Position numbers and translations under genes: made by a program
DNA from: Duganella sp. OV510
GTDB taxonomy: Bacteria; Pseudomonadota; Gammaproteobacteria; Burkholderiales; Burkholderiaceae_D
Assembly: GCF_900100205.1 (NCBI RefSeq)
Contig: NZ_FNEQ01000001.1
Coordinates: forward strand, 1,302,001 to 1,366,000
Length of the DNA stretch: 64,000 nt
Direction of reading: 5' to 3'
Shown: positions 22,738-38,375 of the stretch, in pieces
Layout: every line of letters starts with the position of its first letter
Position numbering within the stretch: position 1 is the stretch's first letter
The notes under the pieces: generated by a model
Told to the model about the DNA's origin: nothing
Databases searched by the model: none
Seen by the model: only the letters and a program-made list of their open reading frames with translations

Positions 22738-22758
22738 ACTATGGCTCCTCATTGTTTA

Positions 22759-22773
22759 ATAGCGTAAAACTAT
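22759..22773 (-). promoter_or_regulatory. OxyR-like half-operator and palindrome before the catalase gene
   Basis: ATAG-N7-CTAT fits one of the two units of the known OxyR operator exactly. It overlaps a second palindrome, GTAAAA-CTA-TTTTAC (22764-22778). A second ATAG-N7-CTAT unit at the expected spacing is not seen. Confidence 0.5.
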
Positions 22774-22846
22774 TTTACTCAGCCATCTCGATAAATAAAA
22801 CCTATATATATTAATGGCGATGATAGTCAATTTCTATACGCGATTG

Positions 22847-22861
22847 CTGTGACTTGAACAG
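22847..22861. promoter_or_regulatory. Site A of a shared CTGTT-N5-AACAG motif
   Basis: CTGTGACTTGAACAG is a 15-bp near-palindrome (arms CTGTG/AACAG, one mismatch) upstream of the DszB-like gene. It resembles sites B (32884-32898) and C (35687-35701) in front of the other genes of this locus. Confidence 0.45.
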
Positions 22862-22991
22862 CTGCTGCTGCCGGCGCAGCAATCTGCTGGCGAAAACCAA
22901 GCACAATGGGCGGTTTTCGCCCGGTACGCTTTCTGCATCAGGACTGGCAGCGGCGCCGCCGGCGCAGCACACCATTTCAAGAGGAAGACAT

Positions 22992-24047
22992 ATGAGCAAG
23001 ACAGATACGATCTGGTTCACCCGCTGCCCGGTGCCGACCGCCACCGGCCTGGCCTACAAGCTCGGTTGGCTGGACCAGGAATTCGCCACCGAAGGCATCG
23101 CTCTCAAGACCTTGCAGGAAGTCGGCGGCGAGCTGGCCCGCCAGCACTACGACCACGAGCTGACCACGCTGATACGCGAAGGCGGCAACCTGTTCGCGCT
23201 GCCAGCACGCGCACAAGGCGCCAACACGCGCCTGATCGGCCTGACCTGGATCGACGAGTGGCAATCGATCCTGGTTCGTCCCGGTTCACAGATCAGCAGC
23301 CCGGCCGACCTGGCCGGCAAGCGCCTGGCGCTGCCGCGCTTCCGGGACATCGACCTGGCCGAAAACAAACGCGGACGCAGCATCGCGCGCGGCATGAGCC
23401 TGGCCGGTTACCACGGCGCGCTGGCTTCGGCCGGTCTGACGCTGGAAGATGTGACGCTGGTGGAAGTCGGCAGCACCACGCCACAAACGCAAGGCGACGC
23501 GCCAGGCGCGGGCCTCTGGCACGGCATCGAGGCGCTGATCCTCGGCGAGGTGGACGCGGTCTACGTCAAGGGCGCGGCAGCAGCCGATGCCGCGCGCGCC
23601 GCCGGCGCCGTGGTTGGCATCAACCTGGACCAGTTGCCGCAGCGCCGTCACCGCGTCAACAACGGCACGCCGCGTCCGATCACCGTGCACCAGGATTTCC
23701 TCGACCAGCATTTCGACCTGGTGGTGCGCTTCCTGGCACAGACGCTGCGCGCTGCCGATTGGGCGCGCAGCCATGAAGCCGAAGTGCGCGCCATCCTGCA
23801 AGCCGAAACCCGTGCCGGCAGCGAAGGCGTGGCGGCGGCGTATCGCGACGGCTTCCACCTGTCGCTGGCGCCGGACCTGTCGGACGAACGCCTGTCGCTG
23901 TTTGAACTGCAGAAGAACTTCCAGCTGCGCCACGGCTTCCTCGACCGCGATGTCGACGTGCGCGCCTGGGCCGATCACGCGCCGCTGAAAGCCGCGCACG
24001 CGCTGCTGCAACAGCAGGCCAAAGAGGAGCTTACCCATGCCAGTTGA
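22992..24047 (+). CDS. DszB-like sulfinate desulfinase homologue
   Basis: The 351-residue protein has the periplasmic-binding-protein fold of the SsuA/TauA type but no signal peptide, so it should be cytoplasmic. Known DszB (2'-hydroxybiphenyl-2-sulfinate desulfinase) uses Cys27, His60 and Arg70. Here Cys12 is in the same CPVP context. His52 and Arg62 keep the ten-residue spacing, and two glycines follow the arginine as in DszB. The segment TRLIGLT...SPADLAGKRLALP also matches. I infer a C-S bond-cleaving enzyme. Automated annotation would probably call it an ABC substrate-binding protein. It overlaps the next gene by 11 bases. The start has GAGGAAG upstream. Confidence 0.72.
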   Translation: MSKTDTIWFTRCPVPTATGLAYKLGWLDQEFATEGIALKTLQEVGGELARQHYDHELTTLIREGGNLFALPARAQGANTRLIGLTWIDEWQSILVRPGSQISSPADLAGKRLALPRFRDIDLAENKRGRSIARGMSLAGYHGALASAGLTLEDVTLVEVGSTTPQTQGDAPGAGLWHGIEALILGEVDAVYVKGAAAADAARAAGAVVGINLDQLPQRRHRVNNGTPRPITVHQDFLDQHFDLVVRFLAQTLRAADWARSHEAEVRAILQAETRAGSEGVAAAYRDGFHLSLAPDLSDERLSLFELQKNFQLRHGFLDRDVDVRAWADHAPLKAAHALLQQQAKEELTHAS

Positions 24048-25116
24048 ATTTGTCGGCGGGCTGTTCCCGCGCAACCAGCTCGCGCCGCGCCAGGCTTATG
24101 GCGCGCCGCTGGACCTGACCTATCTGCGCGACCTGGCGCGCGCCCACGAACATGCGGGCTTCGACCGCGTGCTGATCGCCAGCGGCGGCGGCGATCCGGC
24201 CACGCTGGCCGCCTACGCCGCCGCCCATACCGAAAAGCTGGGCTTCATGATCGCCCATCGCCCCGGCCTGACGCCGCCTGTGCTGGCGGCGCGCGCCTTC
24301 GCCACGCTGGACCAGACCACTGGCGGCCGCATACGCCTGCACGCCATCACCGGCCATGCACCGGAACCCGAGCACGGCGAACACCTGCTGGACAAGGCCG
24401 AGCGCTACGCTCGCGCCGATGAATACCTGCAAATAGTCCGCCGCACCTGGAGCGAGGACCAGCCGTTCGACTTTGAAGGCAAATACTTCAACATCAGGAA
24501 CGCCTACTCGCCGGTCAAGCCGCTGCGCAAGACCGGCGTGCCGATCTCGCTGGGCGGTTCCTCGGACGCCGCCTACCAGGTCGCGGTGCGCCACACCGAC
24601 CTGTATGCGCTGTGGGCCGAACCGCTGGCCGACACCGCCGCCCGCATCGCCCAGCTGAAGGCGGCGGCCGACGCCATCGGCGTGACGCCGCCGCGCGTCA
24701 GCCTGTCAGTGCGGCTGATCATCGGCGAGACGGAGGAGCTGGCGTGGCAAAAGGCGCGTCACATCGTCGCCCAGCTGGAGCGCAACTACAGCGGCGCGAA
24801 AGTGCCGGGACGTGGCGGCGATCATGGCCAGAGCGGCGGCGGCCAGCGCCAGCTGGCGCTGGCGGCGCGTGGCGAGGTGTTTGACAAGGCGCTATTCCTC
24901 GGCACCTCCAGCGCCATCGGCGGCGGCACCGACTCGACCTCGCTGGTCGGTACACCAGACACCATCATCGCGGCGCTGCTGGCCTATGCCGACATCGGCG
25001 TGACCACCTTCCTCAATCGCGGCTACGATCCGCTGCATGACGCCATCGACTACGGCCGCTACATCATCCCCGCCGTGCGCGAGGAATTCCGCCGCCGTGA
25101 ACTGGCGGCGGCATAA
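24037..25116 (+). CDS. Luciferase-like (SsuD-type) flavin monooxygenase 1
   Basis: The 359-residue protein is a TIM-barrel bacterial-luciferase-family member, closest by pattern to alkanesulfonate and sulfone monooxygenases. It shows the FDRVLIASGG strand, the long helix LTPPVLAARAFATLDQTTGGRIRLHAITG and the family block GVPISLGGSSDAAYQVAVRHTDLYALWAEP. A Gly-rich loop with Ser/Asp (GGGTDSTSLVGTPDTI) comes near the end. Such enzymes use FMNH2 and oxygen to cleave C-S bonds. It starts inside the end of the DszB-like gene with GAGGAG upstream, so the two products are probably made together. The pairing suggests oxidation to a sulfinate that the partner cleaves. Confidence 0.85.
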   Translation: MPVEFVGGLFPRNQLAPRQAYGAPLDLTYLRDLARAHEHAGFDRVLIASGGGDPATLAAYAAAHTEKLGFMIAHRPGLTPPVLAARAFATLDQTTGGRIRLHAITGHAPEPEHGEHLLDKAERYARADEYLQIVRRTWSEDQPFDFEGKYFNIRNAYSPVKPLRKTGVPISLGGSSDAAYQVAVRHTDLYALWAEPLADTAARIAQLKAAADAIGVTPPRVSLSVRLIIGETEELAWQKARHIVAQLERNYSGAKVPGRGGDHGQSGGGQRQLALAARGEVFDKALFLGTSSAIGGGTDSTSLVGTPDTIIAALLAYADIGVTTFLNRGYDPLHDAIDYGRYIIPAVREEFRRRELAAA

Positions 25117-25125
25117 AAAGCAGCA

Positions 25126-26340
25126 TCAACCGCCGTTGGCCGCCAGCGGCTGCGGCGGTTGCAGCGTATCGTTGCGCGCAGCGGCGGCGCGCTCCTTGCG
25201 GAAATGCGGCAGGATGTGCTCGCCAATACGATACGCTTCCTCCAGGTGCGGATAACCGGCCAGGAAGAACAGGTCAATGCCAACGCCATGGTATTCTCGG
25301 ATGCGCTCCACCACATCGGCATAGCTGCCAACCAGCGCGCAACCAGGCGGAATGCCGATGTAGCCGAAACCGGCCCACACATTCGGATGGATGAAGAAAT
25401 CCTCGAACTGGCGTTCCTCTTTCTGCGGCTGCTGGAATTCGGTTTCGTAGCCCAGCTTGCGCGCCGAGCGCAGACCGGTAGCGGCAGCGGCCGCACGATG
25501 GGCGCCGCGCACCTGCGCCTCGTCGAAGAAACGGCGCGCTTCAGCGCGGGCTTCCTCATCGGTCGGTCGGGTGATGACGTCGATCGACAGGCCGAAACGG
25601 ATGGCATTCTCGCGGCCGTGCGCGCGAGCGCGGCGGCGTACATCGGCAATCAGTTCCGCCACCTCTTGCGGGCGTTCCGCACGCATCAGGAAATAGTCGG
25701 CATGCTTGGCACCGAAGTCGCGCGCCGCTTCGGACGAGCCGGCGGTGCAGATCAGCGGCAGCGCCGCCTTGGCCAGCGGCCCGCGCAAACCGCCGCCCTC
25801 TGCCTTGTAATATTTGCCGGCGTAATGGAAGTCCGGATTGTTCCAGTAGCCGCGCACCACGTCCATGAATTCGGTGGCGCGCGCATAGCGCTCATCGTGC
25901 GGCACGAAGTCGCCAACCTGCTGCTGCACCGTCTCCGAGCCGCCATTGATGATGTTCCACACCAGCCGGTTGCCGCTGGCACGCTGGTAGGTTGCGGCCA
26001 TCTGCACCGCCGCCCATGGGGAAAAGTGATACGGCTGGAACGCGGTGACAAAGCGCAGGCGGCGCGTTTCGCGCGCCAGCAGCGAGCACACCGTCCACGG
26101 CTCTTCTCCGGTGACGCCGTTCACCATCAACACGCCACCGAAGCCATTCAGCTCGGTGGCCTTGGCCACTTGCGCCAGGTAGTCGATGTAGCTGAAATCA
26201 TCACCGACAGCGAAGTCGGACAAGGCGCCGGTGGTCTGGCCCGGTCCCAGACCATGCCAGTCGCCGCGATTGCGGCTGTCGCCGGGAAGGTGCTGCGTTT
26301 CGCCGTGTAACGGCAGGCGCGAAAAGAAATCGATGCTCAT
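25126..26340 (-). CDS. Luciferase-like (SsuD-type) flavin monooxygenase 2
   Basis: This 404-residue member of the luciferase-like family has SsuD-type blocks. They are FVTAFQPYHFSPWAAVQMAATYQRAS, RLVWNIINGG, HDERYARATEFMDVVRGYW, and the C-terminal HPNVWAGFGYIG and LAGYPHLEEAYRIGEHILPHF. The FMNH2-dependent oxygenase role is family knowledge; the substrate is unknown. It is the last gene of a six-gene minus-strand operon, 15 bases after the ATPase gene. It faces the plus-strand monooxygenase 1 gene, with 9 bases between their stop codons. Start ATG with AGGACC upstream. Confidence 0.85.
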   Translation of the reverse strand: MSIDFFSRLPLHGETQHLPGDSRNRGDWHGLGPGQTTGALSDFAVGDDFSYIDYLAQVAKATELNGFGGVLMVNGVTGEEPWTVCSLLARETRRLRFVTAFQPYHFSPWAAVQMAATYQRASGNRLVWNIINGGSETVQQQVGDFVPHDERYARATEFMDVVRGYWNNPDFHYAGKYYKAEGGGLRGPLAKAALPLICTAGSSEAARDFGAKHADYFLMRAERPQEVAELIADVRRRARAHGRENAIRFGLSIDVITRPTDEEARAEARRFFDEAQVRGAHRAAAAATGLRSARKLGYETEFQQPQKEERQFEDFFIHPNVWAGFGYIGIPPGCALVGSYADVVERIREYHGVGIDLFFLAGYPHLEEAYRIGEHILPHFRKERAAAARNDTLQPPQPLAANGG

Positions 26341-26355
26341 GGAATGGTCCTCGGT

Positions 26356-28155
26356 TCAGTAAGGTTGGAAGGCACGGATGCTGGGCGTATCACCTACCAG
26401 CGCGCGCGTGTAGTTACGCTGTGGACGATCCAGCACCTGGCTGGCGTCGCCCTGCTCTATCACACGGCCCTGGCGCAGCACCAGCACGCGATTGGCCAGC
26501 GAACGCACCACGCCCAGGTTGTGCGTGACGAACAGGATGGCCAGTCCTTCGGCCTGTAATTGCTGTAGCAGTTCCATGATCGCCGCCTGCACCGACACAT
26601 CCAGCGCCGAGGTGATCTCGTCGCAGATCAGCAGGCGTGGTTGGCACAGCAGCGCGCGGGCGATGGCGACCCGCTGACGTTCGCCGCCGGACAAGGCGCC
26701 CGGCCAGGCATCCAGCACGCGGGCCTGCAACGCCACCTTGTGCAGCACCGCCAGGATAGCCGCTTCGCCATCCTGTTCCTGCGGCCGCACATGGCGCAGT
26801 ACATGGCGCAAGGTCTGGCCGACGGTCTGGCGCGGATTCAGCGCGCGGTAAGGATTCTGGAAAATGTACTGGATCTCGCGGCGCTCGGCGGCGCCACGGG
26901 CGCGGGCCTGCAAGGGCAGCAGCGAGCGGCCATAACGTAGCTCCGCCTGCGCCGACGCGCCCAGTCCGGCCAGCAGGCGGGATAGCGTGGTCTTGCCGGA
27001 GCCGGATTCGCCCACCACGGCCAGACATTCGCCCGGCGAGACCGACAGGCCGACATCGAACAGCACCTGCTGGCGGCCATACCAGGCGTTGGCATGCGCG
27101 ACCGACAGCAGCGGTTCGGCCGGTGGCGGCGGCGCCAGCTCAACGAATCGTACACTGGCGACTGCGGCCAGCGCTTCCGGCCGCACGCAGGCGGCGCGGT
27201 GCTGCGGCGCCACCTCCTGCAATGGCGGCACGACAGCGCAGGCGTCGATACGCCAGGCGCAACGCCCGGCAAAGGCGCAACCGGTTGCGCGTGCGCCCGG
27301 CGCCGCCGGCTGGCCGGGAATCGGCCGTGGCACGCTGGCCTTGCCGATATCAGGAATCGCCGCCAGCAGTCCCTTGGTGTAAGGATGGGCGGGATGCGCG
27401 AACAGCCGCGCGGAAGGCCCGCTTTCAACGATGCGCCCGGCGTACAGCACAATCACGCGGTCGGCCAGCTGGTGCACCACCGCCAGGTCGTGCGAGACAT
27501 ACACCGCCGCCGCACCGTAACGCTGGCATAGCTGACGCACGGTTTCGAGGATGCGCGCCTGCGTGGTGACATCCAGCGCGGTCGTCGGTTCGTCCAGCAC
27601 GATCAGGCCCGGACGCGGCAGGAAGGCCAATGCCAGCAGCACCCGCTGCTGCTGGCCGCCCGACAGCTGGTGCGGGAAACGGCGCAAAAAGTCCGGCTCC
27701 TGCGGCAGGCCAACATCGCGCAGCACCTGCGTGATGCGTTGTCCGCGTTCCCCGCGCGGCAGCGACGGCGCGTGCAGGTGCAGCACTTCCTCCAGCGCGG
27801 CGCCGATGCGTTGCAGCGGGTTGAGTGCGGTGGCCGGGTCTTGCGCCACATGGCCAATCAAGCGCCCACGTAACCGCCGCAAGGTGGCTGGCGTCGCGCG
27901 CAGCACATCCTCGCCCGCCACCATCACGCTGCCGCCACTGATGCGTGCACCCTGCCGCACATGGCCCAGCAGAGCGCTGGCGATGCTGGTTTTGCCGGAG
28001 CCGGATTCGCCGACCAGGCCGAGGATCTGTCCCGCCTCCAGTTCAAACGCGATATCCGACACCACCTCGGCGCCGTTCTGCAAGGTGATGGCAAGGCCGG
28101 AAACGGCCAGCGCGGGGCTGGCCAGCAACTGCGGCAACTGGACGGGTGCGTTCAT
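26356..28155 (-). CDS. Fused double ATPase of a dipeptide-type ABC importer
   Basis: The 599-residue protein joins two ATPase domains. The first has Walker [10 protein letters not shown] at about 49-57 and LSGGQQQR near 167. An oligopeptide-type cysteine-containing tail (GCAFAGRC...AC) ends it, as in DppD/OppD. The second has Walker [10 protein letters not shown] near 382 and LSGGERQR near 490, like DppF/OppF. Such fusions power importers of the Opp/Dpp/Nik class. The start ATG overlaps the permease stop codon (ATGA), which argues against longer upstream starts. Together with the genes at 28152-31577 it makes a complete importer. Confidence 0.93.
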
Positions 28156-28997
28156 CGTTGTTCTATCCTCGCATTGAGTCGCGCCAGGCCATCCGCCAGC
28201 AGGTTGGCGCCCAACGCGAACAGTACAATCATCAGCACCGGCGCCAGCACCGCCCATGGCTGCGCCTGTAGGCCGGCACGATTTTCATTGATCATCAGGC
28301 CCCAGTCCGCCGCCGGTGGCGCCACGCCGTAACCGAGGAAGCTCAAGCCGGACAAGATCGTCACCGCCCATGACATCATGCTGCCGAAATGGACCAGCAG
28401 CGGCGTCAGGATATTCGGCAGCACTTCGCGCAGCAGGATGTGGCGGCGCGAGTAGCCCAGCAGCTCGGCCGCCTCGACAAACTCCTGCGAAGCCACACCC
28501 AGCGCCAGGCTACGCGCCAGGCGCAACATGCCGGGCAAGAAAGCAATCGAGGTGGTCAGCACGATCAGCCACGGCGCGCGGCCCAGCATCGACACCACCA
28601 GCAGCACCAGGATCAGGTTAGGGAAAGCCAGCAGCACGTCGGCACACCAGACCAGCGCGCGGTCTATGCGGCCGCCGGCGTGCGCCGCCAGCAATCCAAG
28701 CAGCGCGCCTGCCAGCAGCGCGATGATGGCGGCGGCGATGGTCATCCACACCATCGACCAGCCGCCCAGCAGTAGCCGTGACCACACATCGCGGCCAAGG
28801 TAGTCGTAGCCCAGCGGCGCGCCTTGCGCCGGTGCGCCGTACACCGGCCCGGTGAAATCAGCCGCGCCGTGCGGCGCCAGCCAGGGGCCGGCCAGCGCCA
28901 CCAGCAGCACCAATAACGTCAGCAACAGGCCGCTACGCAGCGCGCGCTGACGCCAGACGCCGCGCAACCAATGGCGCAGCACCGCCGGGCCACTCAT
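28152..28997 (-). CDS. ABC importer permease, DppC type
   Basis: The 281-residue protein has six predicted membrane helices. The N-terminal helix near 20-40 precedes a conserved [16 protein letters not shown] segment, typical of DppC-like permeases. The EAA-type loop that contacts the ATPase is visible as the [25 protein letters not shown] stretch. It overlaps the genes on both sides by ATGA junctions, so translation of the permeases and the ATPase is coupled. Confidence 0.92.
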
Positions 28998-29998
28998 GGT
29001 TTGGCTCCGGCGCGGCCCTGGGATAGCGCGGTACGCAGACGCGGTGTCAGCAGCACCGCCAGCAGGTCGGCGCCCAGGTTGATCAGCACCACGCTGGCGG
29101 CAATCAGCAGTACCAGCGCCTGCACCACCGGCAAGTCACGCATTTCAATTGCCGCGTTCAGCGCGCTGCCAACGCCAGGATAGGCAAACACCACTTCCAC
29201 CACCAGCGTCCCGCCCAGCAGCACGCTCAGTGTCAGCGCCAGGCCCTGGATGGCCGGGATCAGTGCATTCGGCAGCGCATGGCGCCACAGGATGCGCCAC
29301 TCCGGCACGCCGCGCAGACGCGCGGCCAGCACATATTCCGATTCCAGTGCCTCGATCATGGCGGCGCGCACCAGCCGGCACAGGTAGGGCAAGCCCGCCA
29401 GCAGCAAGGTCGCCAGCGGCAGTACCAGGAAGCGTGGCTGCGCCCATGCCGAGCGGCCCGAGTCCAGCAGCGATACGGCCGGCAACCAGCGCCACACACT
29501 GGTGGCAAACAGCATCACCAGCGCGATGCCCAGCGCGAACTGCGGCACGGCCTTGACGGCAATCAGCGCACCGAGCACCTTGCGCTCCAGCCAGCTGTCG
29601 CGGTGCAGCGCCATCCACACGCCGCCACCCAGCGAAAACGGCACCAGCAGCAACAACACGCCGGCCAGCAGCGCCAGCGAATTGTCTGCGCGCGAGGCCA
29701 GCAAAGTCTGCACCGGCACATGTGAATCCAGCGATACGCCAAGATCGCCGCGCACCAGCCGGCCGCACCAGTTCAGGTACTGCACTGGCAAGGGCTGATC
29801 CAGCCCAAGTTGCCGTTGCAGCGTGCGCACCGTGGCTTCCGATGCTTCCGGTCCCAGCACCATGCGCGCCGGGTCGGATGGCAAGGCCTGGGTGGCGGCG
29901 AACACGATCACGCTGATGGCCACCACGGCCGCCGCGCCGCCCAGCAGACGTCGTCCCAGCCACAGCGCCCACGGCACCAGCGCAGTCAGTTGGCTCAT
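28994..29998 (-). CDS. ABC importer permease, DppB type
   Basis: The 334-residue protein is the DppB-like partner permease. It has an N-terminal membrane helix, the DPARMVLGPEASEATVRTLQRQLGLDQP periplasmic stretch characteristic of this group, and five further helices. The ATPase-contact loop is YVLAARLRGVPEWRILWRHALPNAL. It starts four bases after the substrate-binding protein gene, with AAGGAGC upstream. Confidence 0.92.
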   Translation of the reverse strand: MSQLTALVPWALWLGRRLLGGAAAVVAISVIVFAATQALPSDPARMVLGPEASEATVRTLQRQLGLDQPLPVQYLNWCGRLVRGDLGVSLDSHVPVQTLLASRADNSLALLAGVLLLLVPFSLGGGVWMALHRDSWLERKVLGALIAVKAVPQFALGIALVMLFATSVWRWLPAVSLLDSGRSAWAQPRFLVLPLATLLLAGLPYLCRLVRAAMIEALESEYVLAARLRGVPEWRILWRHALPNALIPAIQGLALTLSVLLGGTLVVEVVFAYPGVGSALNAAIEMRDLPVVQALVLLIAASVVLINLGADLLAVLLTPRLRTALSQGRAGAKP

Positions 29999-30002
29999 CG
30001 TG

Positions 30003-31577
30003 TCAGCTCCTTAGCCACAGGTCATCGAAGCGCCAGGTGGTGAAGTGCGAGCGTTCCGGTTTGGCGCCGCCAACACGCGGCGATATGCCGTCCACCACGT
30101 TGGCGTAGCCCCAGATCAGCAGGCCGCCGCTGTCATGCTGGATCTGCTGCGCCTCGTGCACCAGCAGCTTGCGCCGCTCGACGTCCGGCTGCGCCATCGC
30201 TTCGGTCAGCAGTTGCGTGAAGCGGGCGTCGTTGAAGTGGGTTTTGTTGAGGGCCGCCAGCGGGCCATCGGTATTGGTGGCGGTGTGCAGGAATTCGCCA
30301 CCCAGCTTATAGGTGGTACTCAAGGCCCAGCTGTCGCGCAGCGGGCCGTTGAACGTGGCGGCGTCGACCTGCTTGACGCGGATGTCGACGCCAGCCAGCC
30401 TGGCCTGATTGGCAAACACCTGCGCCGCCGCACTGCCGCCCGGTCCGGCCGCAAGTTCCAGTTGCAAGCGCTCGTGGCCCGCCGCGCGCAACAGCGACCT
30501 TGCCTGTTCCAGATCGTAGGGCCGCTGGGCGATGGCGTGGTTGTAGGTTGGATCAAGCGGCGAATACAGGTCATTGGCGATCCGCCCCTGGCCGCCCAGC
30601 GCGCGCTCCACAAGCTCCTGGCGATTCGCCAGCAGACGGAAAGCCTGCCGCACGCGCACATCGCGGAATGGTTCGGCGTTCAGGTTCATTTCAAAACCGT
30701 GCCAGCCGTGGCTTTGGCTGATGACCAGGTTGGCCACGCCGCTGGCGCGCAGCGCCGGAATCTGCTCGGGCGAGATGGCGTAGGCAGTATCGATCTGCCC
30801 CGCCAGCAAAGCCGCCACGCGCGCCGTCTGGTCCTTGAACTCGATGATTTCCAGTTCATCCGCATACGGCTTGCCGGGCTTGAAGTAGTTTTCAAAGCGG
30901 GTGAACAGCGACCGCTGCCCGGGCGTGAATTCCTTCAGCTTGTACGGCCCTGCGCCGACCGGATTGCGCACCGGGTCATAGTCGGTCGGCACGATGCCGC
31001 CGAAATTGACCCAGCCGTCCGGCAGCGGCAAAAAGCCGGCGCCATCGCGGATCGGAATGCGCACGGTGCGCTCATCCAGCTTGACGATGTTGTCGCGGTC
31101 TATGCGCTGCACCAGCGACGCAAACGGCGACGCCAGTTGCGGGTCGGACAGGCGGCGCGCCGAGAAAATCAGGTCATCGGCGCTGATGGTTTTCCCGTGA
31201 TGGAATTCCAGCCCCTTGCGCAGGCGGATGGTCCAGGCGCTGGCGTTGGCGTTGACGCTGACCTCTTCGGCCAGCGCCAGGTCCGGCGTCATATGCTCGC
31301 TCCACTCCCACAGCTTGCTGTACAGCGCGAAGCCGCGAATGATGCCGCTGCCGACCGGCTTGTGGACATCCAGATTGCCGCTATGGCTGCCGTCGACGAT
31401 GCCCAGCCGCAGGCGGCCGCCCTGGCGCGGCTTGTCGTCCAGCGCGGCAGCGGCGCTGGCGGATGCATTGCCTGCGCCGCCCTGCTGCTCGCAGCCGGCG
31501 AGCAAGCCGCCGAAGGCCAGGCCGGCGCCCAGTGCGGCGCCGCCACGTAAAAAGTCCCTGCGCGAGTGCTGTCCCAT
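30003..31577 (-). CDS. Family 5 extracellular solute-binding protein, Tat-type lipoprotein
   Basis: The 524-residue protein belongs to the DppA/OppA/NikA cluster. The signal carries a twin-arginine motif (SRRDFLRGG, residues 5-13) followed by a lipobox (LLAGC, Cys29), so it is probably exported folded and lipid-anchored. The body shows the family layout: TIRLRKGLEFHHGKTISADDLIFSARR, an IPIRDG...GAGPYKLKEF region and a QAFRLLANRQELVERAL block. The ligand could be a peptide, a metal chelate or a sulfur compound; its place between monooxygenase 3 and the permeases favours the monooxygenase substrate. A strong ribosome-binding site (AAGGAGG) precedes it. Confidence 0.9.
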   Translation of the reverse strand: MGQHSRRDFLRGGAALGAGLAFGGLLAGCEQQGGAGNASASAAAALDDKPRQGGRLRLGIVDGSHSGNLDVHKPVGSGIIRGFALYSKLWEWSEHMTPDLALAEEVSVNANASAWTIRLRKGLEFHHGKTISADDLIFSARRLSDPQLASPFASLVQRIDRDNIVKLDERTVRIPIRDGAGFLPLPDGWVNFGGIVPTDYDPVRNPVGAGPYKLKEFTPGQRSLFTRFENYFKPGKPYADELEIIEFKDQTARVAALLAGQIDTAYAISPEQIPALRASGVANLVISQSHGWHGFEMNLNAEPFRDVRVRQAFRLLANRQELVERALGGQGRIANDLYSPLDPTYNHAIAQRPYDLEQARSLLRAAGHERLQLELAAGPGGSAAAQVFANQARLAGVDIRVKQVDAATFNGPLRDSWALSTTYKLGGEFLHTATNTDGPLAALNKTHFNDARFTQLLTEAMAQPDVERRKLLVHEAQQIQHDSGGLLIWGYANVVDGISPRVGGAKPERSHFTTWRFDDLWLRS

Positions 31578-31586
31578 GCGGCCTCC

Positions 31587-32795
31587 TTACGCTGCAGCGG
31601 CCAGTGGCGCCTGTGCGGCAGGCCGGCGTCCCGGCGACAGCAACGGTACGTCGAAGCCGTGGTCCAAGTCCAGCAGCGGGAATAGCAGGTCGGCCACGCG
31701 GTACGCCTCTTCGATCAACGGCCAACCGGACAGGATGAAGGTGCCAACGCCGTGTGCCTGGAATTCGCGGATGCGCGCCGCCACGTTCTCGGCGCTGCCG
31801 ACCAGCGTGGTGCCCTGCGCCGGGCCAAGCACGTTAAAGCCGTGCAGCGCCGGGCCGGTCCAGATGTTTGGATAAATCTCATAATCGCGTGCCTTCGGCA
31901 GGCGGCCGGCACGAATCTGCTCCAGGTTGCGGTTGACCTGCGGGTCCGGGCTGACATAGGTATCGAAATGCTCGCCCGGCGGCAGTTGGCGCTCGATCGA
32001 CTGGCGCGCATACTCGACCGAGGTGCGGCTGACCAGGTACTCGGCATATTCCCACGCCTCCTCCTCGGTTTCGCGCACGATGATCTGCAAGCGCGTGCCA
32101 TATTCCAGTTGGCGTCCCAGCTTGGCCGCCTCGGCGCCGACGCGGCGGAATTTTTCACCCAGCCTGGCCGGGGTGTTGGCAAAGCTCAAATACACATCCA
32201 GCGTCTGCACCGAATGCGCCACGCCGGGGCCGGAGGTGCCAGCGCCCCACAGCGGGATAGGCGCATAACTCGGCGCAGCAGCGCCACGCTGGCTGCCACC
32301 GCCGGCATCGGCCGGACGCGGTGCGATCTGAATGTATTTGCCGTCGTAGCCAGCACCGCTGCCGCTGTACAGGCGCTTGAAGGCATCCCAGTATTCCAGG
32401 CTGTAATCGTAGCGCTCATCATGCGGCAAGTGGAAACCTTGCGACGGCAGCACCTTGTCGTTGCCATTGACGACGTTGTAGATCAGGCGATTGCCTGAGA
32501 AGCGGTTGATGGTCTGCGCGATCTGTGCCAGCTTGGCCGGCGCGATCAGGCCCGGATAGACGGCTGCCACGAACTTCATGCGCTGGGTGACCGACAGCAC
32601 CGATGCCGCCAGCACGTTGACTTCGTCGGCGCCGGTGGCCAGTAGCGCACCGTAGTAACCCAGCTTGTCGATGGTGCTGGCCAGTTGCTGCAAATGACCG
32701 TAGCCGGTCTGCCAGCGTCCATCCGCTTCCCACGGCACCTGGCCGTCCGGCGCGGTCAGATACCACAATATTTTTACGCCCGTTTTCCCGCTCAT
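31587..32795 (-). CDS. Luciferase-like (SsuD-type) flavin monooxygenase 3
   Basis: This 402-residue protein is the closest of the three to alkanesulfonate monooxygenase SsuD. It has YGHLQQLASTIDKLGYYGALLATG, RFSGNRLIYNVVNG, HDERYDYSLEYWDAFKRLY, TRLQIIVRETEEEAWEYAEYL and the C-terminal LSGWPLIEEAYRVADLLFPLLD. In SsuD the segment FGIRLHV carries Arg226 and His228; here the arginine is kept and the histidine position is glutamine. It is the first gene of the minus-strand operon, nine bases before the solute-binding protein gene. The start at 32795 has GAAGGAG seven bases upstream. Confidence 0.87.
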   Translation of the reverse strand: MSGKTGVKILWYLTAPDGQVPWEADGRWQTGYGHLQQLASTIDKLGYYGALLATGADEVNVLAASVLSVTQRMKFVAAVYPGLIAPAKLAQIAQTINRFSGNRLIYNVVNGNDKVLPSQGFHLPHDERYDYSLEYWDAFKRLYSGSGAGYDGKYIQIAPRPADAGGGSQRGAAAPSYAPIPLWGAGTSGPGVAHSVQTLDVYLSFANTPARLGEKFRRVGAEAAKLGRQLEYGTRLQIIVRETEEEAWEYAEYLVSRTSVEYARQSIERQLPPGEHFDTYVSPDPQVNRNLEQIRAGRLPKARDYEIYPNIWTGPALHGFNVLGPAQGTTLVGSAENVAARIREFQAHGVGTFILSGWPLIEEAYRVADLLFPLLDLDHGFDVPLLSPGRRPAAQAPLAAAA

Positions 32796-32883
32796 CGCCT
32801 GCTCCTTCAATGGTTATTCCTGTATTTCGCAAAAGCCGTGCCCGCGCGGGATGGCCAAAACTGCTGCGCGTGCAACGGCGCTG

Positions 32884-32898
32884 CTGCTTTTTCAACAG
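32884..32898. promoter_or_regulatory. Site B of the shared motif, before monooxygenase 3
   Basis: CTGCTTTTTCAACAG lies 89 bases upstream of the monooxygenase 3 start codon, in the 128-base gap after the TonB receptor gene. It shares TTCAACAG and the leading CTG with site C, and TTnAACAG with site A. Confidence 0.45.
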
Positions 32899-32923
32899 CG
32901 CGCTGCTGCTTGCGCAGCGGCGC

Positions 32924-35578
32924 TTAGAAGCGGTACGCCAGCGAGGCTTGCAGCGCGCGCGGCACGCCCGGCTGCAAAAACTCGGTGGTGGCGCCGGTCA
33001 ACCCGTTGACGAAGTTCTGCTCATTGGTAACGTTGAGGATGCGTAGCGCCGCATCCCACTTCGGCTGGCGGTAGTACAGCGTCAGGTTCAGGTTGTGCTC
33101 ATTCGGCACGGTAGCGTTGTGGGCCAGGCTGGTGTCCCACTTGCTGGTCCACCAGGCGGAGGCCTCGGCGCCGAAGCCTTTGCCGAAGCGCACATCGACA
33201 TAGCCGTTGAGCGAGTGCTGCGGGATGCCGGGCGCCTTGCTGGAGCCTGGTGCGGCGCGCTGGTTCAGCGTATTTCCGTCGGCGAACACGGTGGCGTTGT
33301 CGGCCACGAAGCCGTACGGCGAGAAGAAGCCGGCCGGGAAAGTGATGTAGGTGTACTTGGCGTTGATCAGCGAATAGTTCAGGCCCGCCGTCACATCACG
33401 CGTGGCTTGCAGGCGCAGCGACAGGTCGACACCACGGATCTGCATTTTCGGCACGCTGCCATCGGTCAGCGGCGCCACGTCACGCTGCTGGCGATAGGCG
33501 GCAATGGTGCCTTGCAGACGGCCGGGTATCAGCTCGGCCTTCGCGCCGACTTCAAACAAGCGGCTCAAGCTGCGGAAGTTGAGTGGATTCAGTTTGTTAT
33601 TGGCGCCCCAGGTCAGCACGTCTGCAAAGCCGCCGGTGTTGATCGAATACGAGCGGTCATAGGTCGCGTACAGCGTACTGTCCGCAGTCGGCTTATACAG
33701 CAGGCTGCCCTGTACCGCCGGCAGGTAGGCGCGCAGCGAATCCGATACTTCCTGCGCTGCGGTCAGGTAGACCGGATTGTGAATGTAGGCGTCAACGCGG
33801 GTGCCGCTCAGGCCGAGGTTCAGGCCATAGCGCTCGTCCAGCAGGAAGTTCTGCTGGGTGAACAGGCCGAGGTTTTTCCAGTCACCGTCCGAAGTGTAGA
33901 CGGCGCCGCCGGCTGCCGGTGACCCACCGCGCTCCGAATAGAAGTCGCCGCCGGCCGGATAGGCAGCAGGCAGGCTCAGATAGCCAAACGCGCTGGAATA
34001 TTGCGGCACGCCGGCAGTGCCGATCCACGAACCGGGACCGGATGGCGAGGCCAGGCCGAGCAGCGTTCCTGGCGTTTTCAAGTCCAGCGGCGCAGTCAGG
34101 TCATACGGATTGATAGTGAAGCTGTTGTTGGCCGCTTTGGTACTGAAGCGTTCGTAGCGGTAGCTGACACCGGTATTGCTGTCGTGCCGCAGCGGCAGGC
34201 CAAACAGCGTGTAACCGCCATTGCCGCGCAGTTCCAGCCGGTCTTCAAAGATGCGGTCCTCGATCTGCGTGAAGAAACTGCCGACCGAACTGCCGGTATC
34301 CTTGGAGTGCTGGTACAGGGCGCTGTTCAGCAGCGACCAGCCGCGCGTGATGTCCCATGCCACGCGCAGTTGCGAGGTCTCGCGGCGTGCCGTGTTCTTG
34401 TCGTTCGGGTTGGAGTACGCCGAATCGGACAGCGATGTCAGGCCATTGCCCTGCAAGCCCGGATCGTAGACCCAGCCGCGCACGGTGCCCGGCGTGGCAG
34501 CGTTGGTGAGGAAGGACGGCAACGCCGTACCGCTCAGCAGCGCTCCGGCGACATACTGCTTGACGCCGGCCGTGTTGGTGACGGCGGTACGCTGCTGCCA
34601 ACCCACCACCGATGAGTTATAGGCGCCCGATGCGTACACCGGCGAATAATACTTGATCGAAGCGCCACTGCCGACGCTGATGATCGGCGTCGCACGGCCA
34701 CCGTAATACTGGCCGCTGTCGATCAGCGTCTGCGTCACGCGGTTCCAGCCGTGGGTGACATTGAAATCGTAGTAGTCGTCCACCGCCAGATTCCAGTCAA
34801 CGCGCACGCCGGCGGCCGGCTTCCACGCCAGCGCGCCGTAGAAGGCGTTGTAGTTATTACTGACGCCATCGGCGTAGTCCTTGGCGCGCTGAGGCGTCAC
34901 ACTGACGCGGTAGGCCAGCGTCTCGCTCAGCGGGCCGGTCAGATCGAAGGTCAGCGAGTTGGCACCATACGAGCCACCGCCCGGCACCCAGGTGCCCAGT
35001 TGCGCGCTGACCTGGCCGTGCTGGCTCTCAAAGTCCGGCTTCTTCGACAGGTAATTGGCATAGCCGCCACTGCGCGAGGAGATGCCGAACACTTGCGGCA
35101 CCGGGCCGGCGACAATATCGACGCCCTCGAAGGCATTGGTATTAAAAGGATGGCGCACATTGTAGGTACGCTGGCCATCCTGGTATAGCTCGGACGCCTG
35201 GCCGCGTATCAGCGGCGCCACCGAGACGTTCTGGCCGCCGTTGCGCGTCACGCCAGGCGCGTACTTGACCAGGTCGTCGGCAGTCTTGATGCCATCCCGC
35301 AGCAACTGGTCGGCATTGACCTGCGATACCGAGCGTGGCGTATCCAGCAAGCTGGTATCGGTGCCGTACACCGAACTGACCGGACGCCTGGCCAGCGCAG
35401 TGCTCTGCCCTTTCACCACCACCACCGAGCCGTCGGCAATCGCTTCCACCGCTGGTGCGGCAGCGTCGTCCGCCACAGCTGCTGCGGCAGGATCAGCCTG
35501 CGCCTGCAACGCGGTCAACGCCAGGGCAACCGCCAGCGCCAGGCGGCGCGGCGTGGGTTGAGGAAGTTGGTGATTCAT
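32924..35578 (-). CDS. TonB-dependent outer-membrane receptor
   Basis: The 884-residue protein begins with a signal peptide (RRLALAVALALTALQAQA). A plug domain follows (about 60-200: SLLDTPRSVSQVNADQL, IKTADDLVKYAPGV, APLIRGQ, FEGVDIVAGP). A large beta-barrel ends in the aromatic-terminated strand ASLAYRF typical of outer-membrane proteins. By pattern it falls in the siderophore-receptor branch. No iron-uptake genes lie nearby; the neighbours are an ABC importer and monooxygenases, so it may import the organosulfur substrate. The start at 35578 has CGGAG eight bases upstream; an earlier in-frame ATG lacks one. Confidence 0.9.
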   Translation of the reverse strand: MNHQLPQPTPRRLALAVALALTALQAQADPAAAAVADDAAAPAVEAIADGSVVVVKGQSTALARRPVSSVYGTDTSLLDTPRSVSQVNADQLLRDGIKTADDLVKYAPGVTRNGGQNVSVAPLIRGQASELYQDGQRTYNVRHPFNTNAFEGVDIVAGPVPQVFGISSRSGGYANYLSKKPDFESQHGQVSAQLGTWVPGGGSYGANSLTFDLTGPLSETLAYRVSVTPQRAKDYADGVSNNYNAFYGALAWKPAAGVRVDWNLAVDDYYDFNVTHGWNRVTQTLIDSGQYYGGRATPIISVGSGASIKYYSPVYASGAYNSSVVGWQQRTAVTNTAGVKQYVAGALLSGTALPSFLTNAATPGTVRGWVYDPGLQGNGLTSLSDSAYSNPNDKNTARRETSQLRVAWDITRGWSLLNSALYQHSKDTGSSVGSFFTQIEDRIFEDRLELRGNGGYTLFGLPLRHDSNTGVSYRYERFSTKAANNSFTINPYDLTAPLDLKTPGTLLGLASPSGPGSWIGTAGVPQYSSAFGYLSLPAAYPAGGDFYSERGGSPAAGGAVYTSDGDWKNLGLFTQQNFLLDERYGLNLGLSGTRVDAYIHNPVYLTAAQEVSDSLRAYLPAVQGSLLYKPTADSTLYATYDRSYSINTGGFADVLTWGANNKLNPLNFRSLSRLFEVGAKAELIPGRLQGTIAAYRQQRDVAPLTDGSVPKMQIRGVDLSLRLQATRDVTAGLNYSLINAKYTYITFPAGFFSPYGFVADNATVFADGNTLNQRAAPGSSKAPGIPQHSLNGYVDVRFGKGFGAEASAWWTSKWDTSLAHNATVPNEHNLNLTLYYRQPKWDAALRILNVTNEQNFVNGLTGATTEFLQPGVPRALQASLAYRF

Positions 35579-35686
35579 GATTCGGCTCCGATCTTTGTGG
35601 TTGGTTGCTTGCACAAAGTGCAGTTTCCATGCCACTCAAATCGGCGCCGTTTCACGCCCGGATTGCTGGATTTGCAGCGCGAACTG

Positions 35687-35701
35687 CTGTTTATTCAACA
35701 G
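35687..35701. promoter_or_regulatory. Site C of the shared motif, before the TonB receptor
   Basis: CTGTTTATTCAACAG has perfect 5-bp inverted arms (CTGTT/AACAG) around five bases. It lies 109 bases upstream of the receptor start codon and is the best copy of the motif. Confidence 0.5.
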
Positions 35702-35733
35702 CCGGCGCCGCCCTGCGCTGTTGCGCGGGCGAC

Positions 35734-35771
35734 AAAAAAAAGGCCGCCGCATAAGCTCATGCGGCGGCCTT
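35734..35771 (-). terminator. Intrinsic terminator after cphA1
   Basis: A perfect 13-bp stem (arms 35740-35752 and 35759-35771, six-base loop) is followed on the minus strand by eight T (the A-tract at 35734-35741). It lies 17 bases past the cphA1 stop codon and ends the cyanophycin synthetase message. Confidence 0.92.
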
Positions 35772-35788
35772 CTATGGAGCGTGGAAGA

Positions 35789-38359
35789 TTATGCTTCCTT
35801 GATACGCCTGGCGATATGCGCCAGCGCGTCTTCCACCTGGTCGATCAGGATCAGGCACAGGTCACCGTCTTGCAAGCGCGCCAGCGCGGTGTCGATGGCC
35901 TTGAATTCGCCGTAGATTTCCTCAACGTGCGAAGTGCGCGGTGCGCCGGTCAGGCCGGAGCGCAGCAGCGCCACCACTTCGCCGTCGACGCGGCCACGCT
36001 GGCAGGCGTCTTCGTACAGCAGCACGTCGTCAAATGCGCGGCCAAGGATCTCGGTCTGCTGCGAGATGTCCTGGTCGCGGCGGTCGCCTGCGCCGGAAAT
36101 CACCACCACGCGGCGCTTGGCCGGCATGGTTTCCACCGCCTTGACCAGTGCCAGGATGGCGTCCGGATTGTGGCCGTAGTCGGCGATCAGCGTCGCGCCC
36201 TTGTAGTCGAACACATTGAAGCGGCCCGGCGCATTGTCCGAATCGTTGGCGAAGGTTTTCAGGCCGAGGCGGATCGCATCCCAGCCGATGCCCACGCCCC
36301 ACGCCGCAGCGACGGACGCCATGACGTTCTCCACCTGGAAGCCGATGGCGCCGTTGCGGGTGATCGGCACCTGCGACAGCGAGATGCGATGCTGCTCGCG
36401 GCCTTCCGCCGCGACGATGTCGCCATCTTCCACATACACGGTGCGGCTGCCCTGCGCCAGGTGCGTGGCGATGACGGGATGCGTGCGGTCGGCGCCGAAG
36501 AAGATCACCTTGCCACGGCAGGTGGCCGCCATGCCGGCGACGATAGGATCAACCGCGTTCAGCACCGCGTAGCCGCTTTCCGACACGTTCTGCACGATCA
36601 CGCGCTTCAGCACCGCCAGGTCTTCCACGGTGGTGATGTAATTCAGGCCCAGGTGGTCGCCCATGCCGATATTGGTGACGACTGCCACCTGGCAGCGGTC
36701 AAAGGCCAGGCCTTCGCGCAAGATGCCGCCACGCGCGGTTTCAAACACCGCCGCATCAACATCAGGATGCAGCAGCACGTTGCGCGCGCTGCGTGGACCG
36801 CTGCAATCGCCGCTATCGGTCTGGCGGCCTTCGATGTAGACGCCGTCGGTATTGGTCATGCCGGTGCGCAGGCCGCTGGCGGTCAGCAGGTGCGCGATCA
36901 GGCGCACGGTGGTGGTCTTGCCGTTGGTGCCGGTCACCGCTACCACGGGAATGCGGCCGTTTTCGCCAGGCGCAAACATGGTGTTGACGATGGCTTCTCC
37001 CACCGCGCGGCCTTTGCCAAACGATGGCGCGATGTGCATGCGCAGGCCCGGCGCGGCATTCACTTCCACCACGCCGCCACGTTGATTTTCAATTGGCTCC
37101 AGCACGTTGTCGCACACCACGTCCACGCCGCACAGATCGAGGCCGATCATTTGCGCCGCTTCCACCGCACGCGCCGCTACTTCCGGATGCACGTCATCGG
37201 TGACGTCGGTAGCGGTGCCGCCGGTCGACAGGTTGGCGTTGTTGCGCAGGATGACGCGCTGGCCCTTGGCCGGCACCGAATCCGCGTTCAGGTCTTGCAG
37301 TGCCAGGCGCGCCAGCGCGATGTCGTCGAAGCGGATCTTGGTCAGCGAAGTCGAGTGGCCCGAGCCGCGACGCGGGTCGGCATTGACGATCTCCACCAGC
37401 TGGCGCACGGTGTGCACGCCGTCGCCCACCACCAGCGGCGGATCACGGCGCGCGGCAGCCACCAGCTTGTTGCCGATGACCAGCAGGCGGTAATCGTGAC
37501 CTGGCAAGTAGCGCTCGACCATCACATCGTCGCGGAATTCCTTGGCGGTGCGGAAGGCAGCCTTCAGATGGTCTTCCGTCATGATGTTGACCGTGACACC
37601 CTTGCCCTGGTTGCCGTCCTTCGGCTTGACCACCACCGGCAGGCCGATTTCCTGCGCGGCTTTCCAGGCGTCGGCTTCATCTTCGACCGAACGGCCGATA
37701 GGCACCGGCACGCCGGCGGCGTGCAGCAGCTTCTTGGTCAGTTCCTTGTCCTGCGCGATGGTCTCGCCAATGGCGCCGGTGGTGTCCATTTCAGCGGCCT
37801 GGATGCGGCGCTGTTTCGAGCCCCAGCCAAACATCACCATCGAGCCTTCGGTCAGGCGGCGAAACGGAATGTCGCGCGCCACGGCGGCGTTGACGATGGC
37901 GCCGGTGCTTGGGCCCAGGCGCACGTCTTCATCCAGGTCGCGCAATTCGGTCAGCGCGGCTTCCAGGTCGAAGGCGGTATCGGCCAGTACCGAGACGATC
38001 AGCGCCTCGGCCAGTTCCACGGCGCGGCGGCCGACGGCTTCTTCGGTGTACTCCACCACGGTTTGATAGATGCCCTCTTCCAGCGTGGCGTGCGTGCGGC
38101 TGAACGTCACCGGGCAGCCGGCTTGCGCCTGCAGGCTCAGGGTCACCACTTCCAGCACGCGGGCCAGCGGCACGGCGCTGGAATTGCCGGTCGGGTGCAA
38201 GGCGCCAACGGCAGGAAAACGCGCGTGCAGGCGCTGTTCGAAGTTCGGCAGCGTCGCGATCGATTGTTCTTCCGGCGGGCACGAAACGATGACTTCCACT
38301 CCAGTATGGTGGCTCCAAAGATTCGGGCCGCGAAGGGCGCGGATACGTTTAACTTCCAT
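35789..38359 (-). CDS. cphA: Cyanophycin synthetase (CphA1 type)
   Basis: CphA makes the storage polymer multi-L-arginyl-poly-L-aspartate from Asp and Arg with ATP. The 856-residue protein has the three known parts. The N-terminal domain is about 1-165. The ATP-grasp domain, about 220-475, includes LPVVVKPKDGNQGKGV and ends in GGVVEVNAAPGLRMH. The Mur-ligase-like domain has an intact P-loop, GTNGKTTT, near residue 478 and a C-terminal domain with IADYGHNPDAI. It follows the shorter synthetase gene by 16 bases in the same operon. The ribosome-binding site is weak, which suggests translational coupling. Confidence 0.95.
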   Translation of the reverse strand: MEVKRIRALRGPNLWSHHTGVEVIVSCPPEEQSIATLPNFEQRLHARFPAVGALHPTGNSSAVPLARVLEVVTLSLQAQAGCPVTFSRTHATLEEGIYQTVVEYTEEAVGRRAVELAEALIVSVLADTAFDLEAALTELRDLDEDVRLGPSTGAIVNAAVARDIPFRRLTEGSMVMFGWGSKQRRIQAAEMDTTGAIGETIAQDKELTKKLLHAAGVPVPIGRSVEDEADAWKAAQEIGLPVVVKPKDGNQGKGVTVNIMTEDHLKAAFRTAKEFRDDVMVERYLPGHDYRLLVIGNKLVAAARRDPPLVVGDGVHTVRQLVEIVNADPRRGSGHSTSLTKIRFDDIALARLALQDLNADSVPAKGQRVILRNNANLSTGGTATDVTDDVHPEVAARAVEAAQMIGLDLCGVDVVCDNVLEPIENQRGGVVEVNAAPGLRMHIAPSFGKGRAVGEAIVNTMFAPGENGRIPVVAVTGTNGKTTTVRLIAHLLTASGLRTGMTNTDGVYIEGRQTDSGDCSGPRSARNVLLHPDVDAAVFETARGGILREGLAFDRCQVAVVTNIGMGDHLGLNYITTVEDLAVLKRVIVQNVSESGYAVLNAVDPIVAGMAATCRGKVIFFGADRTHPVIATHLAQGSRTVYVEDGDIVAAEGREQHRISLSQVPITRNGAIGFQVENVMASVAAAWGVGIGWDAIRLGLKTFANDSDNAPGRFNVFDYKGATLIADYGHNPDAILALVKAVETMPAKRRVVVISGAGDRRDQDISQQTEILGRAFDDVLLYEDACQRGRVDGEVVALLRSGLTGAPRTSHVEEIYGEFKAIDTALARLQDGDLCLILIDQVEDALAHIARRIKEA

Positions 38360-38375
38360 GATTATTCTTGTTCTT

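Follow-up and report, generated by a model that had tools for sequence, protein, structure and literature searches.

We analyzed a window of 64,000 nucleotides from Duganella sp. OV510 (contig NZ_FNEQ01000001.1, positions 1,302,001 to 1,366,000), in which a first-pass annotation made from the sequence alone had placed an organosulfur uptake-and-desulfurization locus at positions 22992 to 35578. The nine genes that it listed, for a desulfinase, three monooxygenases, an importer, and a TonB receptor, are all present according to open reading frames (ORFs) and Pfam and NCBIfam searches (Table 1). The gene block had been delimited correctly, but the unit is wider, from ca. 22827 to 35785, when promoters and a terminator-like hairpin are included. 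A plus-strand pair, made up of the dszB-like gene and the monooxygenase gene mo1, converges with a minus-strand series that runs from the receptor through mo2, the solute-binding protein gene (sbp), the two permeases (permB and permC), and the ATPase to mo3. For the receptor gene, the GTG reading frame that reaches 35635 is probably an overextension, and we prefer the start codon ATG at 35578 because a ribosome-binding-site-like stretch and a sigma54-like site precede it. The true start of the fused double ATPase may lie inside its reading frame.

Table 1. Coordinates of the predicted features within the 64,000-nucleotide window
Feature	Position	Strand	Evidence or remark
Inserted island (whole cluster with promoters and hairpin), ca. 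12.96 kb	22827-35785		Comparison with empty sites
Weak sigma54-like site upstream of dszB-like gene	22922-22937	+	3 mismatches
DszB-like sulfinate desulfinase gene	22992-24047	+	ORFs, Pfam/NCBIfam, PDB sequence search, fold model
Monooxygenase 1 (mo1), luciferase-like	24037-25116	+	11-bp overlap with dszB-like gene
Monooxygenase 3 (mo3), luciferase-like	25126-26340	-	Domain and structure matches
Fused double ATPase, Dpp/Opp type	26356-28257	-	Two ABC_tran stretches with oligo_HPY in between
DppC/NikC-type permease (permC)	28152-28997	-	Domain searches
DppB/NikB-type permease (permB)	28994-29998	-	Domain searches
Family-5 solute-binding protein (sbp)	30003-31577	-	Twin-arginine translocation (Tat) signal, then lipobox-like LLAGC
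Monooxygenase 2 (mo2), luciferase-like	31587-32795	-	Domain and structure matches
Sigma54-like -24/-12 site upstream of mo2/importer operon	32828-32843	-	GGGCACGGCTTTTGCG, 2 mismatches
Conserved dyad TGTTGAAAAAGCAGCA, presumed activator site	32882-32897	-	Motif search, repeat search, genome-wide pattern
TonB-dependent outer-membrane receptor	32924-35578	-	Plug domain; barrel in low-confidence model
Sigma54-like -24/-12 site upstream of TonB receptor	35619-35634	-	TGGCATGGAAACTGCA, 1 mismatch
Conserved dyad TGTTGAATAAACAGCA, presumed activator site	35685-35700	-	Motif search, repeat search, genome-wide pattern
Terminator-like hairpin, 16 pairs, T tract	35738-35773	-	Between cyanophycin synthetase gene and island promoter

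The cluster is flanked by a catalase gene (21274 to 22752) and a cyanophycin synthetase gene (35789 to 38359), and we compared this neighborhood across 40 genomes of the genus, including its own, in all of which both flanking families were matched (E of ≤1e-100). Between the best matches, the two genes are separated by only 87 to 208 bp in 17 of the 39 other genomes, versus 13.0 kb in the window. The gap was about 1 and 2 kb in two further genomes and 4.5 to 16 kb in six, while in the remaining 14 the flank matches were far apart, on different contigs, or lacked a close catalase (distances were computed for the 25 neighboring pairs, and the other 14 genomes were read from the match listings). 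The window flanks were then aligned with ten extracted catalase/cyanophycin synthetase sites. Homology to the empty site L082 stops at 22826 and restarts at 35786, with 4 bp in between in L082, and in three more empty sites (L083 to L085), the left boundary differs by no more than 15 bp and the right one by no more than 7 bp. The G+C content is 0.659 in the island, 0.608 in the left flank, and 0.627 in the right flank. Set against an empty site, the insertion is sharp, as expected of a genomic island, and its natural reading is that all nine genes arrived laterally as one block. No recombinase was found by Pfam or NCBIfam among the nine annotated genes. The repeat search of the window, made for repeats of 14 bases or more, gave at least 60 families, and the 20 largest were covered; short target duplications fall below this size.

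The same gap (22753 to 35788 in the window) is filled by other DNA in 6 of the 39 other genomes, and because of this, it may be an integration hotspot. Among the examples examined (L087 to L091), L087 contains a Tle1-like lipase and DUF3304/DUF4123 genes and L090 a very long immunoglobulin (Ig)-repeat protein. Five of the six genomes with a gap of 4.5 to 16 kb (all except G340) were searched and gave no desulfinase, importer, or monooxygenase match of >80 bits. On the right side of the island, positions 35789 to 40538 (minus strand) hold two adjacent cyanophycin-synthetase-like genes of 856 and 720 amino acids, which are paired in many genomes of the genus.

In order to follow the cluster beyond the genus, genome contigs were scanned with six short binding-protein patterns, a search that is nonexhaustive by design. 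It yielded 69 binding-protein loci, 52 of them titled Pseudomonas, the nearest being that of Pseudoduganella umbonata (82%). Genes were counted by tblastn (at least 70 bits and at least 35% coverage) within the extracted locus DNA, in which many loci have short flanks; the gene-calling rule based on codon-position G+C fails on the Acinetobacter loci. Together, permB and an ATPase of >45% identity were found in 66 of the 69 loci. We quote this stricter count because two loci (L010 and L012), which have the binding protein without the importer operon, have weak transporter matches that inflate the simple per-gene counts. The other genes were present at 58 (mo2), 52 (mo3), 40 (TonB receptor), 31 (dszB-like), and 31 (mo1) loci, and an SfnB/DszC-like oxidoreductase was present at 33, while control genes from outside the island in the window (catalase, patatin, and cyanophycin synthetase) had no match in any of the 69.

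The 38 loci without a dszB-like match were followed up by whole-genome searches in 36 genomes (37 loci are listed, L061 sharing its record with L029). All 36 genomes contained a DszB-like gene, with an identity of 59 to 69% in 35 of them and split into two pieces (62 and 68%) in the other; in some, it lay 1 to 3 kb past the extracted flank. Along similar lines, of 149 Pseudomonas genomes, 12 had the binding protein and 16 a DszB ortholog (E of ≤1e-90), with all 12 falling within the 16. In each of the 12, the nearest ortholog was 2.0 to 2.7 kb from the binding protein (Fisher P of 1e-14, a value that ignores relatedness). In a sample of 145 genomes of the family, the binding protein (E of ≤1e-60) occurred only in the genome studied here. 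Thus, the idea that the three units of the locus travel together holds for the desulfinase and the importer, given that every genome with the binding protein had a DszB ortholog and that the two were linked in all 12 Pseudomonas genomes. It holds less well for the receptor, found at 40 of the 69 loci but together with the dszB-like gene at just 6, a number that is partly due to the short flanks.

Related loci also carry genes that recur beside the cluster. A class II aldolase/adducin-like gene was found in 32 of the 69 loci (e.g., L045:7552-8283), adjoining the dszB-like gene in many Pseudomonas and in both Acinetobacter loci, and a gene pair of the ATP-binding cassette (ABC) exporter type accompanied SfnB-like and dszB-like genes in about 25 (e.g., L034:1455-5200). 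The Pseudoduganella umbonata locus (L005:15200-21458) has, between its dszB-like and mo1 genes, a local sigma54 activator gene and a DszB-like copy without the Cys, both of which are absent from the window; no cyanophycin synthetase match was found there in the 5.8 kb beyond the receptor gene. In another genome of the family (L077 to L079, G030:C1:1545000-1604999), seven DszB-like matches are spread over about 53 kb and alternate with matches to TonB receptors, aldolase-like and SsuA-like proteins, and ABC exporters, and this is a large organosulfur region.

Searched against PDB sequences (E of ≤0.001), the desulfinase matched DszB alone (2de2, E of 1e-13; 2de3 and 2de4, E of 3e-12). An AlphaFold model, built from an alignment of 20 sequences from the window and related loci, had a mean predicted local distance difference test (pLDDT) value of 91.5, and its top three Foldseek matches were again DszB (2de3_B, 2de3_A, and 2de2, with TM-scores by query of 0.75, 0.71, and 0.69), with 25% identity in the structural alignment; SsuA (0.64) and Thi5 (about 0.5) ranked after it. 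One PDB title among the fold matches names a complex of the DszB C27S mutant. Cys12, His52, and Arg62-x-Gly64-Gly65 correspond to Cys27, His60, and Arg70-x-Gly-Gly of DszB, which we take to be its catalytic residues. In an alignment of 52 homologs with DszB and the protein from the window, the Cys was kept in 47 and replaced in 3 (L005_17643, L038_20415, and L074_19019), with 2 rows incomplete there, while the His was kept in 50 and the Arg-x-Gly-Gly also in 50 (2 rows incomplete there). The N terminus of the protein is not hydrophobic, whereas that of an SsuA-like paralog is. With homology to DszB above that to its SsuA and Thi5 relatives and the complete set of residues in place, the homology claimed by the first-pass annotation is borne out, and both sequence and model support a firm assignment of the predicted protein to the DszB type.

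The three monooxygenases had been described as SsuD type, which is right for the fold, their best structure matches being SsuD/MsuD, and misleading for the chemistry. According to a study of MsuD, sulfonate turnover requires W195, R225, and R296 (PMC8234197). In SsuD numbering, this sulfonate-binding set is Trp196, Arg226, and Arg297, and the residues at these places are Trp, Ser, and Gly in mo1; Phe, Arg, and Gly in mo2; and Arg, Ser, and Gly in mo3. The substitutions extend to the relatives, with Ser at 226 in 31 of 31 aligned rows for mo1, Phe at 196 in 50 of 50 for mo2, and Gly or Lys at 297 in 51 of 51 for mo3. In 14 of the mo3 rows, the three residues are Trp, Arg, and Lys; these rows correspond by number to the matches of 40 to 42% identity and are probably not orthologs of the window mo3. 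All three proteins also score below the equivalog cutoff of NCBIfam TIGR03565 (518.2 bits), with 178.5 bits for mo1, 244.9 for mo2, and 249.0 for mo3. A sulfonate monooxygenase function was rejected for mo1 to mo3, given that the complete Trp/Arg/Arg set is kept in none of them nor in any of the families of their relatives. Because the full set is absent, their substrate would be something other than a sulfonate, most simply a sulfone-type compound or a ring C-S bond, whose oxygenation would give a sulfinate for the desulfinase.

The importer is built from families SBP_bac_5 and BPD_transp_1 and an ATPase with oligo_HPY, which places it outside the SsuABC type. Its binding protein is probably lipid anchored, judging from its N-terminal signals. 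The view of the first-pass annotation that an importer of this type points to a larger substrate is a guess. The AlphaFold model of the receptor had a mean pLDDT value of 61.8, with a plug of low confidence.

We then examined upstream regions for sigma54-like sites, defined by the pattern TGGCAYRNNNNTTGCW (GG and GC required, at most 1 mismatch, within 300 bp upstream). Among matches from the related loci, they were frequent ahead of the dszB-like (32 of 37), mo3 (21 of 51), SfnB-like (15 of 34), TonB receptor (10 of 38), and mo2 (9 of 51) genes. The controls, genes that are usually internal to operons, had almost none (permB, 0 of 67; permC, 0 of 67; the ATPase, 1 of 76; the aldolase, 1 of 31; mo1, 1 of 31); sbp had 4 of 95, and random stretches had 1.3% of 2,760. 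The sites recur in loci from Pseudoduganella, a methylotroph, Novosphingobium, Pseudomonas, and Acinetobacter, related sequences that are not independent. A dyad, TGCT-N8-AGCA, with a consensus of about TGCTG-N6-CAGCA, was found upstream of the sites in 57 of 108 distinct regions versus 10 of 540 random stretches.

Within the window, the pair of site and dyad occurs only at the receptor and importer-operon promoters, a result that is mildly circular, since 2 of the 108 regions from which the dyad was learned are the window's own. The number of sigma54-like sites in the window is not significant by itself (7 versus 6.31 expected, with 38 of 100 shuffles reaching 7), so that the sites are informative only through their position and the paired dyad. 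A motif-free repeat search also paired the same two promoter regions (D8), and a relaxed pattern fitted to them had no other match in the 6.43-Mb genome, compared with 1 match for the reversed control. Together, a -24/-12 promoter with an upstream activator site is predicted in silico for the receptor and the importer operon and is weak for the dszB-like gene.

The genome has a second organosulfur cluster on contig C8 (L074, G000:C8:135000-154999, and L075), which includes a sigma54 activator gene. It comprises two SsuD-fold monooxygenases, two TonB receptors, a nitroreductase-family gene, an aldolase-like gene, SsuA-like proteins, a permease, a major facilitator superfamily transporter, and two DszB-like genes, one of them without the Cys. 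A sigma54-like site with 2 mismatches (L074:6311) and two dyads lie upstream of the likely later start of the first monooxygenase; this site has ATGC at -12 and is outside the relaxed genome-wide pattern. At a distance of about 30 kb, contig C8 also carries an SfnB-like gene (310 bits; cutoff, 430.9), an FMN (flavin mononucleotide)-reductase-family gene, and a true SsuD, which passes its cutoff with 628.5 bits. Because C8 carries reductase-family, SfnB-like, and activator genes, a flavin reductase, an S-oxidizing enzyme, and an activator could be supplied to the island in trans. We call the C8 activator "SfnR-like" on the basis of its architecture and neighborhood, and the label is our own.

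The reading that we favor, and hold to be quite likely, is that of a laterally acquired, sigma54-controlled sulfur-scavenging island with a 4S-like ending from sulfinate to sulfite. The one-piece insertion and the co-occurrence of its genes agree with the earlier proposal, in which the locus acts as a single unit for organosulfur uptake and desulfurization. The TonB receptor would carry an organosulfur compound over the outer membrane, where the Tat-exported, probably lipid-anchored binding protein would capture it for import by permB, permC, and the fused double ATPase. Supplied with reduced flavin by a reductase whose gene lies outside the island, the FMNH2-dependent mo1 to mo3 would oxygenate the compound, probably at a sulfone-type or heterocyclic C-S bond and not as a sulfonate, to a sulfinate. 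The DszB-like enzyme would hydrolyze this through its Cys to sulfite and a desulfinated product, and the sulfite would enter cysteine synthesis. Sulfur limitation would switch on the island via an SfnR-type activator, probably that of the second organosulfur cluster. All of the reactions, the way the flux runs, the regulator, and sulfur limitation as the signal are inferred.

Several observations weigh against this reading. A DszC/SfnB-like S-oxidizing enzyme is absent from the nine island genes, which leaves the set short of a complete 4S pathway, and no SfnR model is among the 25 NCBIfam families listed for the representative of the C8 activator. The weak sigma54-like site of the window dszB-like gene is not paired with a dyad, and 60 first-order Markov sequences contained, on average, 0.23 site-plus-dyad pairs and at most 2; because this maximum equals the number in the window, the position of the pairs carries more weight than their number. 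Other such points come from uptake and could speak for metal nutrition, with the receptor and a Dpp/Nik-type importer taking up a metallophore or siderophore that the monooxygenases and the DszB-like protein would modify. In NCBIfam, the fused ATPase passes the cutoffs of NikD and NikE (the score being the sum over its two domains), and the binding protein and permeases score highest with nickel-type or Opp models, below the cutoff. The folds nearest to the receptor model are siderophore receptors (PiuA, PiuD, Fiu, the enantiopyochelin receptor, and FoxA), matches that suggest a TonB receptor of siderophore-receptor shape and nothing more specific, and the TonB-siderophore model gave 81 bits against a cutoff of 223.5. 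A role in metal nutrition would, however, leave the desulfinase and its conserved active site unexplained, and the fold matches of the receptor also include PqqU, a receptor for pyrroloquinoline quinone. The sigma54-like promoters are common to SfnB/DszC-like and other organosulfur genes, and SfnB-like oxidoreductases accompany the relatives, so that we regard this role as improbable.

It is somewhat unlikely, in our view, that the desulfinase and the importer are separate sulfur-starvation units sharing a regulon and an island, mo2 and mo3 alone processing the imported substrate and the DszB-like enzyme taking sulfinates made elsewhere. Such a division would fit the two convergent transcription units and the two further strong DszB-like matches in the same genome. 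It would also fit the genomes that have the desulfinase without this binding protein, namely, 4 of the 16 Pseudomonas genomes with the ortholog and 5 of the 6 carriers in the family, where a DszB-like gene (E of ≤1e-20) was found in five other genomes. The reverse was never seen, since the ortholog was not missing from any genome where the binding protein was found, and its neighbor is the mo2-importer operon in both Acinetobacter loci and in many of those from Pseudomonas. It is highly improbable that the DszB-like protein serves for binding, like SsuA/NMT1 proteins, and not as an enzyme, as its Pfam match to NMT1, its match below the cutoff to an NCBIfam SsuA family, the place of SsuA as the next fold after DszB, and the loss of the Cys in 3 of the 50 homologs with a residue there might suggest. 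The absence of a hydrophobic N terminus, the conservation of the Cys, His, and Arg-x-Gly-Gly, and the searches, in which DszB ranked ahead of SsuA by fold and was the sole match by sequence, all argue for an enzyme.

Beyond the sulfur-scavenging island as set out above, a bolder proposal, which we consider doubtful, is that of a self-contained outer-membrane-to-sulfite block, mobile among Proteobacteria, that would mine a bulky natural product excluded by porins, for instance, a thiazoline- or thiophene-containing metabolite or siderophore of neighbors, and would replace sulfonate oxygenation by a hydrolytic, 4S-like last step. As far as we know, DszB-type desulfinases have been described mainly in Gram-positive bacteria that desulfurize fuels. 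In the present case, the same predicted active site is shared by a family from proteobacteria that is linked to one particular importer and to a promoter signature in common. If the island works as proposed, 4S-like chemistry would extend to ordinary environmental sulfur scavenging, in the form of a transport-coupled desulfurization cassette whose binding protein would offer a direct route to the substrate, and the sigma54-plus-dyad promoter would become a handle for predicting whole regulons.

Compared with known systems, the island resembles ssuEADCB/tauABCD in having an importer and, as in ssu, an FMNH2 monooxygenase of SsuD fold. It differs in the Dpp/Opp type of the importer and in the absence of the full sulfonate-binding set, and a true SsuD gene is found elsewhere in this genome. 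The glutathione importer GsiABCD is a member of the Dpp family with a fused double ATPase and can feed sulfur; we know of no desulfurizing enzymes attached to it. All four Gsi models match the island importer, far below their cutoffs. The sfn/msu genes of Pseudomonas (SfnG, MsuC, and MsuD) encode two-component flavin monooxygenases for C-S cleavage and are grouped with sfnR, as described in PMC8234197; SfnR is a sigma54-dependent activator, and it and sigma54 are established for dimethylsulfone use by studies cited in PMC13352529. Their route ends in sulfonate oxygenation by MsuD, whereas the island desulfinase would release sulfite straight from the sulfinate, and unlike sfn/msu, the island has an importer and a receptor and is missing the full sulfonate-binding set.

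The first-pass annotation knew of no described system of this composition. Its parts do have precedents, but their combination on a single mobile block (a DszB-like desulfinase, a Dpp-type importer, a TonB receptor, and sigma54/dyad promoters) was not found in our searches of an open-licence library, which is weak evidence of novelty. For the receptor, the precedent is the ats/sft cluster (atsACBR-sftR-atsK-sftP), which like the island is a sulfur-scavenging cluster with an ABC importer and a TonB-dependent receptor, the latter being placed in the sulfate-ester cluster by PMC3596284. Unlike the island, ats/sft serves sulfate esters with sulfatases, a sulfonate-type importer, and a LysR-type regulator and has no desulfinase. 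Closest in chemistry are Dsz/4S (dszABC of Rhodococcus) and bdsABC of Gordonia terrae C-6, in which, as here, a DszB-like desulfinase stands beside luciferase-like flavin monooxygenases; the island differs from them in its sigma54-like promoters and in having a Dpp-type importer and a TonB receptor within the block. PMC3868597 reports that peptide-type ABC transporters were upregulated together with the desulfinase in Gordonia C-6 growing on benzothiophene. Thus, as far as we found, the combination is apparently new, while the parts are known and the pairing of a luciferase-like monooxygenase with a desulfinase is the theme of 4S and bds.

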